Source: Bacillota bacterium (GTDB lineage: Bacteria; Macinerneyibacteriota; Macinerneyibacteria; Macinerneyibacteriales; DSCS01). From it: a stretch of DNA of 64,000 nucleotides. The translations under genes were made by a program, and so were the position numbers. The notes beneath the pieces are model-generated. The model was not told where the DNA came from and searched no databases. It worked only from the letters and a program-made list of their open reading frames with translations. The stretch's first letter is position 1. Each line of letters opens with the position of its first letter. The stretch covers positions 1 to 64,000 of the forward strand of contig DSCS01000025.1 in assembly GCA_011048995.1 (NCBI GenBank), given 5' to 3'. Positions 27,606 to 37,637 of the stretch are shown here, in pieces.

Positions 27606-28652
27606 TTATTCATTATTATAGGTCACAGACGGGGTAACCGTCCGACGGAACACCGTCGTTGTCCCGATCTGTGTAGCGGTAACTAAAATAATCTCAAAAC
27701 TGAAATTCATTTTACTGGTATGACCGTAATCCACGGGGCTATCTGTATCGGCGCGGTGCACATAGAGAGTATCAGGAGGCAAATAGATCTTTTCCCCCCG
27801 TTCCCACTTAAATGGGATAATAGAGAAAAGAGCCACTTTATCGGCGATGATCCTGTAGTGGGGCGCATATCCGCTTGTCCCTTCTAAATGCGGTTTATGA
27901 AGACGTCTTACCAGATAATGCCATTTAAAACGTTTCCCGCCTCGTTGAAACCAATCCGACTGGGGCACTAAAAAATAAGAGACATGGTATCCGACAACAG
28001 CATTGACAAGGTTGGGCTCTTCCCCGTCCAGGCCGTCACCGTCTTCATCGCGGCCATCCCGCTCCGGATCTTCCGGTTCTCCGTCAACGGTGATCCTGCC
28101 GTCTCCGTCATCATCACGGAACTCCAGGAAGTATTCATCCCTGATATTCGTGTCGGATCCGGAATGGCCGGCTGCGTAATCTTCATCATTGAGGCCGATA
28201 GAAAAGGAGATCCCGTTTCGGGGGATCTCCTCATCATTGTTAAAATAGAGTTCCTTGATCACAGATTCGTCAAAAACAGGAAGCGTATCCCCTCCGTCTT
28301 CCAGCAAAAATGTCCCGTCGGCCGTATGAAAGGAGTAAGTCGTTCCGTCATAAGTCACAGAATCTTCAAAGCGAAGGGTCTGGCGTGTCGTCTTGGTCAG
28401 GGCACCGCCGGTATAGAGCCGTACCGGGACAACATCTCTCTGACCGCTCATAACAACGCTCATAGACATAAAGTCATTGAGCATGGTGTGGAAACCCAAG
28501 TCAAACTTCTGCTCCATGACAATACGCTCCTGAACACCCAGACTCTGCTTCACAAAGACATTAAAGAGATTATAGACAGCAGTAGCGATCAGCCCCATGA
28601 TGGCAATTGTGACTAAAAGCTCGATTAAGGTGACACCTTTTTTATTCATCAT
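27606..28652 (-). CDS. Type IV prepilin-like protein with D-rich calcium-binding-like loops (PilW/GspJ-like position)
   Basis: MMNKKGVTLIELLVTIAIMGLIATAVYNLF prepilin signal; DDDGDGRITVDGEPEDPERDGRDEDGDGLDGEE. Confidence 0.85.
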   Translation of the reverse strand: MMNKKGVTLIELLVTIAIMGLIATAVYNLFNVFVKQSLGVQERIVMEQKFDLGFHTMLNDFMSMSVVMSGQRDVVPVRLYTGGALTKTTRQTLRFEDSVTYDGTTYSFHTADGTFLLEDGGDTLPVFDESVIKELYFNNDEEIPRNGISFSIGLNDEDYAAGHSGSDTNIRDEYFLEFRDDDGDGRITVDGEPEDPERDGRDEDGDGLDGEEPNLVNAVVGYHVSYFLVPQSDWFQRGGKRFKWHYLVRRLHKPHLEGTSGYAPHYRIIADKVALFSIIPFKWERGEKIYLPPDTLYVHRADTDSPVDYGHTSKMNFSFEIILVTATQIGTTTVFRRTVTPSVTYNNE

Positions 28653-28665
28653 TTTTCCTCCCTCC

Positions 28666-31600
28666 TCAATAGTAGAGGAAACGGACGAGGCTTTTCATCG
28701 CTTCATACCGCCAGTTCTCTGTAGAAATGGCTTCTATTCCAAAACCCAGGTAGAGCAGTTTCGTGTCCGTCTCATCAGGCTCCTGATCGATAATCTCAAA
28801 GTCCCATTCGTCAACAGCCCCCTTCCCTTTGTATACCCACACACCGGCGGTAAAGGCACTGTTGTCGGGATCATATCCGTAAACCAAAGCCTGCTTCCCG
28901 GCCATGAGATAACCGTCTGTGCCGTTAAAGTCATAACCGTGAATCGCCGGATTGGCCAAAATCCTCTTGCCGCCCAGCTTCTCATCAGCACTGAGGATAT
29001 CCAGTCCCAGACTCCAGCGTTGGGGCACAGGAGAGCCCTGATTGGCATATCCGTCATAATATTCTCCCTCTACAGGAGCAAGGAGATAACGGCGCAGGTA
29101 ATTACTTCCCACACTACGGGGGAGATCATTTTCGTCACTGTCCTTTTTCATCACACCCACCGTAGCTCCGAACACAGGATCCCCGATAATGGTCGTGGCG
29201 CCGGCAACCCAGAGTTCCGGATTCTGAAGGTTGGAAACCACATAGGGATGTGTGGAAAAATTGCTGTAATCCTGTTTCGTTGCCATACCCAACCCCAGCC
29301 AGCGGCGTATAAAGTACTGCTTCATATCACTTGTCAAGGGGCTGGTCGAATCAAAATTATCAAAGAAACGCTTTCCGATAAAGGCCACCCGCGGCACGTA
29401 TCCTTCCCGATAATGAGGGGAGACAACGGTTTTATCTCCGGTAGAGTGAAACATGTCCAGGTCCCCGTTGATCCCTTCCTGAACAGCCGCATAAAAGGTG
29501 CGGAAATCTTCATACGGCGCCGTCATCCAGGAGTGGAGAAGACGGATGAAGTCATCGGTAAATCCCGGAGGAGAGGCTGTGGACCCGGTGTAAAAGATGA
29601 TAAGATCGTAATCGTCAAAGTATCCGTCATCATCGTCATCAATATACCCCATAAGCGTGGAGGCCTCGGTGTTCTGAGCCACTTCGACAATGTTACAATC
29701 CAGGTCATTCCAATAGAGGGGTCCGTCAATGGCTGTATAAAAGGGGCGGACATTATCCAGGCTCCCTGATTCTTCTGTATCCATATCAAAGACCAAGACC
29801 CGCAGCCGCTCGACACGAACCGGGATATAATCGTTCTCTGCATCTCCCGGAGGAGTTTGCTGTTGTGCAGGCTGCCCGTCGGCATCCAGATAATAGTAGC
29901 TGTTTCCACCGGCGCCGTCTGTAACGGATATATAATAATAGAAGGTCCCGGGCTGGGATATATTTAAGTCATCCAATTCAAAACCGAAAGAATCAGCCAT
30001 AGGCTGCTCCAGGATCTCCCTGCTTTTGGTAAATTTTACAGTTGTATCTCCCACAGCTGTATAGTGCAGGGTAACACTGGCGATCCCGTTTGAATCACTG
30101 GCATGCCATCCGATATAGAAATTCCTGTTGGCCTGTGTATTCCCCCCGGAGACCCAGTAGGGATTATAAACATAAGGCGGCTCCAGGTTAGGGTGATTGG
30201 CCAACTGTTGCACGGTGACTTCATCAATAAAGGGGTCATTATTGCCGGCATTTGAATCATAGGTAAAGAGCCACTCCCGGCGGGAAATGTTCCCGGCCTT
30301 GTCAGAAGCTTCAATGCCCACAAGAACGATGTCCCCTTCCGCCAGAGTCACCCCCGGTGAAAATTGCAAAGTCACGTTGTTGATATTATGCTTGATGTAG
30401 GCCACTTGGGCTGAGACATCGGAAAAACCTGTTGTATTCGTCCAATCGATGGTCGTCGGATCCCCTGTTTCCAAAACACGGAAAAGAACACGGGGATGTC
30501 CTTCTAACGGGGCCACCAGAACACCGCTCTCTGTCTCTATCCCATTGATAATCGTGGAATCCACAATACGGGCAGCCACCTGAGGGGTCGGGCTTCCTGT
30601 CTGCGCTGTTCCGGCAGGATCATAAGGCAGAAGCGGATAAATACGCGGGGGTTTGATATCAGGCTCCGAAGTCACATAGACTTCCGTTTCCATGGCAGAA
30701 GCATTGCCGGCGCGGTCTTTGACCAGGACCCGGTAATAATGCCATCCTTCAGAGACCCCTTCCAGATTGATCCCCACATTCATGGAAGAAAAGATATCAG
30801 AACTCTCCTTTTCAATAAGCTGATGCCCCATTAATTTCCAGTGATATTTCAAGTCTCCTCCGACATCAAACTCTTCCTTTTCAAAAACATAGACTCTGTC
30901 CAGTCCGCTGGTCGGTATTAACTCTTCGCCGGGAGGATTGTCCTTAACCGTGACAGCCAGAGTCACCGTCGTGTGAGGCACAAAAGTCCCAGGAGCCGGA
31001 CTGATTTCTGTAATCTCCGGAGCGACTGTATCCACAATAAAATCATAAGTCCTTTTATCCAGTATCACACCTGTCTCCAGATTGGGATTTGTCCGGGCCT
31101 CTACTTCCACCGTATATTTCCCGTTGGCTGTGGTATCATGAATCACCCATCCGCCGGAATAATTGCCGATACTGCCTTCGCTCACGGCCCATCGGTAAAG
31201 CGTGTTATCGCTGTTAGCGGTAAAATGAGAGGAAATGTCCGTCACACTGCCGTCAGGAGCTGTTAAATTGACATGCAGGAGTTTGAACGGATCCGCTGAA
31301 TAGACGACTCCTTCATAATGACATTGGAAATTGTTCTGCTCAAAAGCCTCATCGATAATACCGTTATTATTGTTATCGATGCCGTCGGAATCGGCTTCCA
31401 GAATATCTCCCTCGGTATAATCCGTCAGCCCGTTTCCGTTGTTGTCAATGCCGTCCCTGTCAAAGGGCGAAAGATTCTTTAAATGATTCAGGCCGTTGAT
31501 GATATCGGCGTTCTTCCGCATATCAACAAAAAGGGCTACGGCGCCTGATGTCGAAACGACCATGTCGTCATCACTGATATCATTGAAATAGATATCAACG

Positions 31601-32148
31601 GTGGGTTTGTCACTTTTAACACCTTTATAGCCCACCGCTGATGCCCAGACATAATGAGATTCGGCAACATTGTCAAAATGTTCTGCCACAGAAACCGTTA
31701 TGCGCATAATGTTCTGATCACTGTTGCTGTGAACGAGCTCATTGGTGATCCCGTCTCCGTCGATATCAGCCGTATCCTCCTGCATAAAGTCCAGATCGAC
31801 CTTGATACGAAGCTTTGTTCCTTCGTCCGAGCGCAGATAATAGATCCCGCCCGGGGCTGTCTCCACATTGTAAAGGGCCTCATCGGCCATATAGGCCAGA
31901 TATTCGGGGTTTGTCTCTTCCAAATAAGTCTTTAACGAGACAAGGTTCTTTTTGTTTGAGCCTCTGTAATCCCAATTCTTCAATTCTGTGAGAATGCTTT
32001 GGGCCACGTTAAAGCGGTCGATGGTCAGCTTGACCTTGCGCTCTGTCTTTCCAACGACCATGATATAAGTCATGACAGCAATGAAAACAATAGTCATGAT
32101 GCTGAGGCCTAAAAGCAATTCTATAAATGTAAAGCCTTTCTTTTTCAT
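28666..32148 (-). CDS. Giant (1160 aa) type IV prepilin-like protein with D-rich loops and Ig-like segments
   Basis: MKKKGFTFIELLLGLSIMTIVFIAVM prepilin signal; DIDGDGITNE, DRDGIDNNGNGLTDYTEGD, DSDGIDNNNNGIIDE, DDDDDGYFDD; Ig-like VDTVAPEITEISPAPGTFVPHTTVTLAVTVKD. Confidence 0.85.
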   Translation of the reverse strand: MKKKGFTFIELLLGLSIMTIVFIAVMTYIMVVGKTERKVKLTIDRFNVAQSILTELKNWDYRGSNKKNLVSLKTYLEETNPEYLAYMADEALYNVETAPGGIYYLRSDEGTKLRIKVDLDFMQEDTADIDGDGITNELVHSNSDQNIMRITVSVAEHFDNVAESHYVWASAVGYKGVKSDKPTVDIYFNDISDDDMVVSTSGAVALFVDMRKNADIINGLNHLKNLSPFDRDGIDNNGNGLTDYTEGDILEADSDGIDNNNNGIIDEAFEQNNFQCHYEGVVYSADPFKLLHVNLTAPDGSVTDISSHFTANSDNTLYRWAVSEGSIGNYSGGWVIHDTTANGKYTVEVEARTNPNLETGVILDKRTYDFIVDTVAPEITEISPAPGTFVPHTTVTLAVTVKDNPPGEELIPTSGLDRVYVFEKEEFDVGGDLKYHWKLMGHQLIEKESSDIFSSMNVGINLEGVSEGWHYYRVLVKDRAGNASAMETEVYVTSEPDIKPPRIYPLLPYDPAGTAQTGSPTPQVAARIVDSTIINGIETESGVLVAPLEGHPRVLFRVLETGDPTTIDWTNTTGFSDVSAQVAYIKHNINNVTLQFSPGVTLAEGDIVLVGIEASDKAGNISRREWLFTYDSNAGNNDPFIDEVTVQQLANHPNLEPPYVYNPYWVSGGNTQANRNFYIGWHASDSNGIASVTLHYTAVGDTTVKFTKSREILEQPMADSFGFELDDLNISQPGTFYYYISVTDGAGGNSYYYLDADGQPAQQQTPPGDAENDYIPVRVERLRVLVFDMDTEESGSLDNVRPFYTAIDGPLYWNDLDCNIVEVAQNTEASTLMGYIDDDDDGYFDDYDLIIFYTGSTASPPGFTDDFIRLLHSWMTAPYEDFRTFYAAVQEGINGDLDMFHSTGDKTVVSPHYREGYVPRVAFIGKRFFDNFDSTSPLTSDMKQYFIRRWLGLGMATKQDYSNFSTHPYVVSNLQNPELWVAGATTIIGDPVFGATVGVMKKDSDENDLPRSVGSNYLRRYLLAPVEGEYYDGYANQGSPVPQRWSLGLDILSADEKLGGKRILANPAIHGYDFNGTDGYLMAGKQALVYGYDPDNSAFTAGVWVYKGKGAVDEWDFEIIDQEPDETDTKLLYLGFGIEAISTENWRYEAMKSLVRFLYY

Positions 32149-32159
32149 AAAACCTCCCC

Positions 32160-34238
32160 TTAATATTCCTGAATGCCTTCAGGATAGGTCGTCACCACGC
32201 GCCAGCTCCAAATCGGCTGCACTTCGATCTTCAGCGTAAACGGCGGCTCATAGGTGTAGAGATTCGGGTCATAATTATAACTTCTGAATTTAAATCCGTT
32301 CCATCGAGTCTGCTGGCCGGAATCCGTAGTCACCGCGTAGATCTGCTCGTCACAGGTCGCACTCCCATAAAGGAACCAAGTCCCTTTTTTGTAAACATAA
32401 TTAGTGGTGCGGGCGTAGGCATGCTCTGTCGATGAACGGGTCTCTCCATAAACCCTGTGCTTGGCATAAAAGACCCCCATGGTGAAGATATCCGGATAAT
32501 CGTCTCCGCCGATGGCCCCGCTCAGCACCCCGGTCCCTTCGCCGTCGACTCGGTCGGCAATATTATTTTTATTATAAATATCATAATAATTATCCTGTTT
32601 TTTATCCGTATAATTGAACATATTTCCCGGAATGACGATGTCATGTTTTACAAAGACACCCAGGATATTCGGCTTTCCCTGATCAGGCTCTGCTCCCGCT
32701 CCCGGGTAACCCTGTTTGACCCTCATATCACTGAAATCTTTATAGGTGTAAGTTACTTTTCCGCAAAACTCCTGATAGATAATATCCCCGGCGATAACGG
32801 CATCATAATCGCTGAAAATAGAAAGTTGGCCGTCCAAAACACCGGTCAGGCCCCGGATCCCTTTCGTCTTATAGATCCCGTAACTCAGATTCGTGTGGCT
32901 TTCGTTGGCCACGGTTCCGTTGTAATATCCTTTTGTGGAGGGATTGCCGTCCACATACATCAACGGGGACTCCAGATCGGCGATGTTCACGGTGTAGGTC
33001 CCGGAGCCGGATCCTGCCTGGTTTCCGTTGACGAAGAGTGTGCCGCTGTCCAGTGTAATGACAAGTTTGCCGTCTCCGTTGACATTCAACGCTCCCGGAT
33101 CCAGTTTGAGAAGTTTCACATCCCCGTTTTCCACAAGAACACCGTTATTTTTGGCTTCCCGCCTTACCCTTGAAAAGTGCTCATCCGTATTGGGGTTAAT
33201 GGGAGGGATGATGGCCGGGTTCCCATTTCCCTTAAAAGAGGCCCAGGCTTTTTTTGCATTATTGGCATGAAAACCCCAGGTCTTAATATAAAAATTGTCA
33301 TTCTGCAGTTTCACAGTATCGTCTTTATGAGCTTCCAGAAAAGCTTTTTGGGTGGCGATCCCCCCGCCCCCCAAGGGACTGCCCTGTATTTTAAAGCCTT
33401 CTCCCTGATCGCTGACACTGAACTGGTCATAGATCTTAGCCAGGGATTCTTCTGTTTGCTGGGCAGTAAAAATAAAATCAATATAATCGTAAGCATGAAG
33501 CTTTCCAAAGACATTGTACCCTTTTCCCACATTAATATGGCCTTTAAAGGCCCCGATGGCAAATTCGCTCACCGACAAGGAGTCCGTCCCCCGGGCGACA
33601 GCCCGGATATAGGTCACTTTGGGAGGATAATCATCTTCGATGATGTAATTGGCCCCTTCCATGCGGAGCTTCACACCCCGGAGATCGGTGCCCTTACAGA
33701 AAATATCATAGACATAGGTGTACTGGCTGACGGAATCATCCTTATCCGAGATCCGGAGCCATCCCTCGATGCGCCCCGAAGGCTTCATCCCTGATGAGGC
33801 CACGGCATAGTAATCTTCTCTTATCTCCCCGTCAGGCCAGATCAAATGATCCACCACTTTGATCCACCAGGTATTCCCGACATCGTCAACCGGAACAGCC
33901 GTGTAGACATAACCGCCTTCTGTGTTGCTGTCCGGATTGACACTTCCTGTCAACATGACATCATTAGTGGAATGTGCGGCCGTCTCATAATCGTAGTATT
34001 CATCCACCGGATTATGAGTCGCTTCATAAAGCCACCTTTTATACCCCTTCTGAATATGCCATTTGATCTCATCCAGTGCCATATTCGCATAATGAAGAGA
34101 ATACTCCTTCTGCTTACTGGACCGTGTCGTTGAAACGTAAGATGAGATAAGCATAGAGAGCGCGGCGATCATAACAGCTGAAATCGCCACCATCCCCAAA
34201 GCCATGAGAAAGGCTATGCCTCGTCTATTGATAGCCAT
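32160..34238 (-). CDS. PilX/GspK-like large prepilin-like protein
   Basis: MAINRRGIAFLMALGMVAISAVMIAALSMLISSYVSTTRSSKQKEYSLHYANMALDEI; no Glu at +5; first gene of the prepilin operon. Confidence 0.7.
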   Translation of the reverse strand: MAINRRGIAFLMALGMVAISAVMIAALSMLISSYVSTTRSSKQKEYSLHYANMALDEIKWHIQKGYKRWLYEATHNPVDEYYDYETAAHSTNDVMLTGSVNPDSNTEGGYVYTAVPVDDVGNTWWIKVVDHLIWPDGEIREDYYAVASSGMKPSGRIEGWLRISDKDDSVSQYTYVYDIFCKGTDLRGVKLRMEGANYIIEDDYPPKVTYIRAVARGTDSLSVSEFAIGAFKGHINVGKGYNVFGKLHAYDYIDFIFTAQQTEESLAKIYDQFSVSDQGEGFKIQGSPLGGGGIATQKAFLEAHKDDTVKLQNDNFYIKTWGFHANNAKKAWASFKGNGNPAIIPPINPNTDEHFSRVRREAKNNGVLVENGDVKLLKLDPGALNVNGDGKLVITLDSGTLFVNGNQAGSGSGTYTVNIADLESPLMYVDGNPSTKGYYNGTVANESHTNLSYGIYKTKGIRGLTGVLDGQLSIFSDYDAVIAGDIIYQEFCGKVTYTYKDFSDMRVKQGYPGAGAEPDQGKPNILGVFVKHDIVIPGNMFNYTDKKQDNYYDIYNKNNIADRVDGEGTGVLSGAIGGDDYPDIFTMGVFYAKHRVYGETRSSTEHAYARTTNYVYKKGTWFLYGSATCDEQIYAVTTDSGQQTRWNGFKFRSYNYDPNLYTYEPPFTLKIEVQPIWSWRVVTTYPEGIQEY

Positions 34239-36309: not shown

Positions 36310-36434
36310 TCATTTCCTTTTCGGGAAGCCCCCTGTTGTGTCTTTCATCTTGAATCTCCGTCTCCCTATGATACCATAGTTCATAGAAAGAGAAAAGGAC
36401 CTTTCTTTTGTCACCTAACCTGCCAGGAGGATCT

Positions 36435-37637
36435 ATGGGCTCCAAAACTCCCCGAGGCGAGCGCTTGAGCATCGCCCTCATCGGCCGCCGGAATGTAGGC
36501 AAGTCATCCCTTATTAACGCCTTGACAGGGCAAGAGATCGCGATTGTCGATGATCATCCCGGCACGACCACTGACCCTGTGGCAAAACCCTTCGAACTTC
36601 TCCCCTTTGGGCCTGTGACCTTCTACGACACGGCAGGCATCGATGATATCGGAGGGGTCGGGGAAAAAAGGGTCCGCGCCTCTCTCAAGATCCTTTGGAG
36701 AAGCGACATCGCCCTTTTAGTCACGGACAGCAAGGGATTAGGCCCTGATGAAAAGAACATCATCGGTCAATTAGAAAAAACAGGGATCCCTTTTCTGATC
36801 CTTTTTAATAAAAGCGATTCAGGGTCACCGCCCTCCGCTTCTCCGGAACTTTGCCGGAAAAAAAAATATCCTTTTGTTTTTCTCTCCACAAAAAACGGAG
36901 ACGGCATAAAAGAAGCCCGGGAGAAAGTCATTACCCTGGCCTCTTCCTTGGCTGCTGAAGAGCGGCCGCTTATCCGTGATATCCTCCGGCCCGGGGAGAC
37001 AGTCCTTCTCATCACTCCCATCGACCCGGGAGCCCCCAAGGGGCGGCTGATCCTTCCCCAGGTCCAGGTACTCCGTGATATCCTGGATGGGGATGCTCTG
37101 GCGTTTACGGCGAAGGAAACTGATATCAATCGGGCCTTAAACACCCTTAAAGAACCCCCTTCCCTTGTGATCACCGATTCTCAGGTCATCGGGCTGGTTG
37201 ACAAACATGTTCCGGAATCTATTCCCCTGACGACTTTTTCCACGGCTTTCGCCCGTTATAAGGGAGAATTAGCCGTTTTGACCGAAGGCGCCCGCCTTTT
37301 GGATACCCTCAAAGACGGGGACTCTCTTCTCATTGCCGAAGCCTGCTCCCATCATGTCCAATGCGATGATATCGGACGGGTCAAAATCCCGCGCTGGCTT
37401 AAGGACTATACGGGAAAAGAGCTGAACCTTACAATAGCAGCGGGACATGATTTTCCCGATGATTTAGAGAAGTTTTCATTGGTCATCCATTGCGGCGGCT
37501 GTATGCTGACAGCTACAGAGATGAAACGACGTATGCGCCAATGTCTGGCCCGCGGAGTCCCTGTAACGAATTACGGGGTGGCCATCTCCAAAATGCATGG
37601 TGTATTAGACCGTATCGTCCGTCCCTTCGGCCTTTAA
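36435..37637 (+). CDS. hydF: [FeFe]-hydrogenase H-cluster maturation GTPase HydF
   Basis: IALIGRRNVGKSSLINALTGQEIAIVDDHPGTTTDPV; EACSHHVQCDDIGRVKIPRWL; HCGGCMLT; aggagg SD. Confidence 0.93.
   Translation: MGSKTPRGERLSIALIGRRNVGKSSLINALTGQEIAIVDDHPGTTTDPVAKPFELLPFGPVTFYDTAGIDDIGGVGEKRVRASLKILWRSDIALLVTDSKGLGPDEKNIIGQLEKTGIPFLILFNKSDSGSPPSASPELCRKKKYPFVFLSTKNGDGIKEAREKVITLASSLAAEERPLIRDILRPGETVLLITPIDPGAPKGRLILPQVQVLRDILDGDALAFTAKETDINRALNTLKEPPSLVITDSQVIGLVDKHVPESIPLTTFSTAFARYKGELAVLTEGARLLDTLKDGDSLLIAEACSHHVQCDDIGRVKIPRWLKDYTGKELNLTIAAGHDFPDDLEKFSLVIHCGGCMLTATEMKRRMRQCLARGVPVTNYGVAISKMHGVLDRIVRPFGL

Follow-up and report, generated by a model that had tools for sequence, protein, structure and literature searches.

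A 1160-residue prepilin encoded between GspK-like and GspJ-like genes in Mcinerneyibacteriota, a possible adhesin arm of the type IVa pilus tip

Filament assembly starts from tip complexes of conserved minor pilins, which are capped by a subunit lacking Glu5 (PMC10191384). GspI/PilI (XcpV), a subunit of normal size, is placed between K-like and J-like partners, and GspK/XcpX binds calcium in solved structures (PMC6211770). Modular pilins are already known: a 2021 count gave more than 1,200 proteins and 264 architectures, among which the one called most extreme has 860 residues (PMC8179133); as that label concerns domain number, we claim no record in size here. Modular pilins bearing adhesive modules are established, and those of Streptococcus sanguinis, a monoderm, act as adhesins (PMC8179133). 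PilB and PilC of this organism, which combine a pilin module with a vWA or lectin module, are thought to be tip-located, and PilB has a metal site (PMC8179133, PMC10191384). CofB of enterotoxigenic Escherichia coli is described as a large T4bP minor pilin with beta-repeat and beta-sandwich domains and a predicted tip location, which serves as an adapter for a secreted protein (PMC8179133). PilV of IncI2 plasmid pili is a minor pilin whose adhesin variants arise within one plasmid (PMC9045228). PilY1/PilC, which is large and tip-located, contains a DxDxDG calcium loop and is presented by minor pilins (PMC7541494, PMC3123361); when calcium was chelated or the motif mutated, surface pili were lost (PMC3123361). 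Little work appears to have addressed the way in which diderm type IV pili grip their targets when PilY1 is absent.

The giant prepilin described here shares features with each of these systems. Like PilB/PilC of S. sanguinis, it combines a pilin module with non-pilin modules, and the metal site of PilB may be counted as a further likeness, whereas the streptococcal proteins are much smaller and the giant carries an Ig-like stalk and a domain matching no family. Like GspI/PilI it lies between K-like and J-like partners, but with a long arm, and calcium-type loops were found here in the I-like and J-like proteins. Its role is expected to resemble that of PilY1, which is itself not a pilin, while the giant is a prepilin without a PF05567 match. 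CofB, as a large minor pilin with additional domains, and PilV, as a minor pilin bearing adhesin variants, are also comparable, though the arms of the giants differ between phyla. Three features are new: a core cassette whose I-like subunit is a giant, the fact that this subunit is conserved throughout a small phylum, and conserved loops combined with apparently exchangeable payloads. No description of them was found in a limited literature search.

The gene was identified in the window, i.e., the whole stretch of 64,000 nucleotides analysed, and encodes 1,160 amino acids on the minus strand (28666..32148; start codon ATG at 32148, last base of the stop codon at 28666). All motifs quoted in an earlier note on this DNA, which gave no strand, were found in this ORF. 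The ORF is a genuine gene: a strong ribosome-binding site (AAGGGGAGGTTTT-ATG) precedes it, and third positions account for most of its differences from the closest ortholog (0.23/0.19/0.55 by codon position). End-to-end orthologs showed 68% and 47% identity, and the giant was encoded in all three Mcinerneyibacteriota species examined, including the genome of the window; the named relatives are MAGs of Candidatus Mcinerneyibacteriota, e.g., Candidatus Mcinerneyibacterium aminivorans. Among the 386 genomes searched, no full-length match was detected outside these three species. Viral contigs searched with a profile of the full-length protein gave zero matches, and a search of the retrieved loci for a GFxxEA-type motif returned orthologs only. 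The protein was left almost blank by Pfam and NCBIfam.

The N-terminus of the giant contained the prepilin leader MKKKG (residues 1-5; 32134..32148, minus strand), with KKKGFTFIELLL at residues 2-13. The predicted cut lies before F6, which places E10 as Glu5 of the mature protein (MKKKG-FTFIE), and the hydrophobic peak spans residues 7-33. The class III leader, G/F cut site, Glu5, and hydrophobic helix of the type IV pilin superfamily were thus all present, and the prepilin N-terminus claimed in the earlier note was borne out by a Pfam N_methyl match of 21.3 bits, just over the cut-off of 21.2. The pilin module (residues 1-186; 31591..32148, minus strand) was modelled with AF2 from an alignment of the giant with six other giant prepilins (pLDDT 79.7, pTM 0.68), and the model showed a long helix (residues 8-57) followed by antiparallel strands. 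A Foldseek search with this model gave no significant pilin match; the best TM-score among the listed matches was that of XcpV, GspI of Pseudomonas (TMt 0.51, E 0.64, not significant). The gspI model scored 15.7 bits against a cut-off of 44.35, which is short of GspI membership by sequence, so that the term I-type refers here to position and likeness and not to a filed membership. With about 970 further residues including a Big_13-like region, the protein has the make-up of a modular pilin.

The pilin module is followed by a D-rich linker (residues 230-267; 31348..31461, minus strand) with two DxNxNGxxD loops kept in the orthologs (DRDGIDNNGNGLTD at residue 230 and DSDGIDNNNNGIIDE at residue 253). 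A possible PKD/Ig-like domain (residues 286-372; 31033..31293, minus strand) was indicated by a PKD match under the Pfam cut-off (E 0.013), and this was the least conserved part of the giant in the ortholog comparison. Two Ig-like domains with KDRAGN and SDKAGN motifs come next (residues about 373-632; 30253..31032, minus strand), with VDTVAPEITEISPAPG at residue 372. Big_13 matched residues 373-641 in all three orthologs (best E 8.5e-5, the protein of the window being under the Pfam cut-off), which agrees with the Ig-like segment proposed previously. A possible third Ig-like domain containing a TDGAGG motif (residues 633-775; 29824..30252, minus strand) is suggested by sequence.

The C-terminal domain (residues 776-1160; 28669..29823, minus strand) had no family match in Pfam or among PDB sequences, and no catalytic motif was recognisable in it, while it was conserved like the remainder of the giant (68% and 45%). 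A full-length AF2 model built with the three orthologs reached a pLDDT of 37 and was unusable; the GATase/flavodoxin-like fold suggested for this region by the earlier note was accordingly left unconfirmed. Alternating strands and helices are expected from the low-confidence model, and the order of the elements resembles that of GATase-like domains in other secreted proteins, which is a lead for this fold. Foldseek hits of the full-length model to Ig-repeat adhesins (6xi3, 4p99, and SiiE) were discarded, with rmsd values of about 17-37 Å. Relatives of the C-terminal domain outside the phylum were sought in viral contigs, plasmids, and the 386 genomes with no convincing match; one genome contained a frame of 1254 aa (E 6.7e-4), which was judged too weak.

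Besides the linker loops, the giant contained a DIDGDGITNE loop in the pilin module (residues 128-137; 31738..31767, minus strand), which is present in the alignment of giant prepilins and lies between strands 112-124 and 138-156 of the AF2 model, and a DDDDDGYFD loop in the C-terminal domain (residues 837-845; 29614..29640, minus strand; the motif DDDDDGYFDD starts at residue 837), with an aligned loop in the orthologs. Loops of the form [DN]x[DN]x[DN]Gxx[DE] occurred three times against 0.045 expected, and at least three were seen in none of 5000 shuffles of the same composition; DxDxDG occurred twice against 0.066 expected (at least two in 11 of 5000). The generic Dx[DN]xDG pattern with a later acidic ligand was found at residues 128 and 837, and the loops at residues 235 and 258 are the DxNxNG variant. 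The D-rich loops of the earlier note were therefore far above chance and kept in orthologs, but they were neither of the two types with which they had been compared. For the EF-hand, no Pfam match was obtained in the giant, the loop at residue 128 is strand-loop-strand and not helix-loop-helix, and the acidic position 12 is missing there (V139). Thrombospondin type 3 repeats were rejected because the whole giant has only two cysteines (276 and 818), neither inside a loop. The loops fit the generic DxDxDG calcium-loop pattern. Calcium binding by such loops occurs in a wide range of folds, also where they lie between strands.

The giant gene lies second in a cassette of three genes with gaps of 11-13 bp. 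Upstream on the same strand lies a GspK/PilX-like protein of 692 aa without Glu5 (X; 32160..34238, minus strand), whose N-terminus matched GspK weakly (E 0.033), and downstream a GspJ/PilW-like prepilin of 348 aa (W; 27606..28652, minus strand) with an N_methyl score of 33 bits and a weak gspJ match. The W-like protein contained a double D-rich loop (residues 180-213; 28014..28115, minus strand), DDDGDG plus DEDGDGLDGEEP, which was kept in a second phylum. The gene order was the same in the relatives as far as contigs reach, one contig ending inside the third gene. The giant thus occupies the position of core minor pilin I, next to K (no Glu5) and J as assigned from weak matches.

Elsewhere in the same genome, PilM, PilN/O/P-like proteins, PilQ, PilT, PilC, and PilB-like ATPases were encoded; PilM, PilQ, and PilT passed the NCBIfam cut-offs, whereas PilC and PilB matched strongly yet under them. 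A prepilin-peptidase-like protein, recognised by eye without an NCBIfam match, adjoins two small pilins. A second cassette (G000:C40; L094 3243-5633) encoded pilin-like proteins of normal size (177, 160, and 488 aa), the last of which is X-like. Another PilB/GspE-like ATPase, the second in this genome, has a c-di-GMP-binding domain of the MshE type (G000:C18; L092 8383-11347); it adjoins a PilC/GspF-like platform gene, with no adjacent pilins, and scored higher with PilB than with GspE (NCBIfam). Further, a second, short secretin frame of about 428 aa was found (G000:C1; L035 757-2040), with similar ones in the two other genomes. Given the second minor-pilin cassette and the second ATPase/platform pair, the filament joined by the giant is not fixed.

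PF05567 (PilY1 beta-propeller) had no match in the giant by Pfam scan and none in the three genomes of the phylum. PilY1 matches were found in 0 of 15 giant-bearing genomes and in 7 of 32 others (5 of the 7 over the curated cut-off), the latter genomes having been chosen for good pilin matches and incompletely screened for giants. With a Fisher p of 0.08 (0.16 when only the five are counted) the contrast was not significant, nor are the genomes independent of one another, and the difference is suggestive only. In three PilY1-bearing genomes (G023:C20, G170:C18, and G099:C292), the pilin module was matched best by a normal-sized pilin (176-183 aa) whose gene lies about 5 kb or less from PilY1.

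Homologs of all three cassette proteins were identified in a second phylum (G088 and G228) by blastp: the giant with E 5e-9 over residues 2-156 of the pilin module, W with 2.5e-10, and X with 3.5e-11. The gene order there differs (giant, W, X), and the giants of 1011 and 1005 aa contained Big_13 and Big_5 domains, with no detectable similarity between their C-terminal parts and that of the window's giant. The loop of the pilin module was kept in the second phylum, as DxDNDG in G228, and a related loop was also found in giants of 697 and 722 aa (G357 and G215). The 722-aa frame at L154 (2689-4854) has its prepilin motif near residue 177, and probably either its true start is internal or it is a fusion. 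In further lineages, prepilins of 818-1284 aa were encoded beside pilin-like genes and carried PKD, FG-GAP, or Ig-like domains or none that was recognised. Overall, giants of 697-1284 aa with differing C-terminal domains beside smaller pilin-like genes were observed at L104, L153, L147, and L148, and more such loci at L150, L151, L152, L154, L155, L085, and L086. The payload appears to be exchangeable on a conserved base with conserved loops. In some of the further lineages (G131 and G268) the giant looks W-like, so that the I-type subunit is not in every case the one extended.

We propose, with a probability of about 0.58, that the giant is a modular I/V-type subunit of a K/I/J core minor-pilin cassette and forms an adhesin arm at the tip of a type IVa pilus. 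Prepilin peptidase would cut the giant after MKKKG, and its N-terminal helix would pack with the K-like and J-like partners into the first-assembled tip complex. From this complex the remaining 970 or so residues, made up of the D-rich linker, the Ig-like stalk, and the C-terminal domain, would project as an arm. The arm may bind a surface, polymer, or cell; binding by the C-terminal domain is a guess, since this domain matches no family. The DxDxDG loops of the pilin module, linker, C-terminal domain, and J-like partner may bind calcium and stiffen the junctions. In this way the giant could supply the tip-adhesin role played by PilY1 in other diderms. With K-like and J-like genes on either side, the tip location already suggested by the earlier note is likely; the K-like neighbour also counts for it, since it lacks Glu5 just like the subunit that caps core tip complexes.

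Alternatively, the giant could be the tip subunit of a type II secretion pseudopilus, with the arm recognising or holding secreted substrates and no surface sticking. The weak gspI, gspJ, and GspK matches of the cassette proteins, the non-significant XcpV/GspI match with the best TM-score among those listed, the second GspE/PilB-like and GspF/PilC-like pair (G000:C18), and the second secretin are in line with this, but we consider it unlikely: PilM, PilQ, and PilT were over their cut-offs in the genome of the giant, the second ATPase favoured PilB over GspE, and an arm of nearly 1000 residues fits badly into a short pseudopilus. Certain minor pilins are distributed over the length of the filament (PMC10191384), and the giant may similarly be a modular pilin that is placed in the shaft or retained in the membrane; this seems a shade less probable still, as the cassette with its Glu5-less K-like cap and J-like partner is conserved in two phyla and the tip best suits the bulk of the arm. 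Another alternative concerns the C-terminal domain, which could be an enzyme displayed on the pilus, such as a GATase-like hydrolase. Databases contain pilins that carry peptidase modules (PMC8179133), strands and helices alternate in the low-confidence model, and residues 776-1160 were as conserved as the remainder, whereas the lack of any Pfam or PDB sequence match and of a recognisable catalytic motif makes an enzyme improbable.

If the reading as a tip adhesin is true, a core minor pilin doubling as adhesin, with arms differing between phyla on a conserved base, would be an answer for pili without PilY1. More tentatively, the giants may represent an undescribed, widespread class of tip cassette among bacteria that lack PilY1. 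The core minor pilin itself would then bear a giant exchangeable payload, and conserved DxDxDG loops of the I-like and J-like pilin modules would make tip assembly calcium-dependent; the cassette gives a clear test of calcium dependence in tip assembly. Additionally, a GTPase gene, HydF-like by eye ([FeFe]-hydrogenase maturation), was observed on the plus strand of the window (36408-37637).
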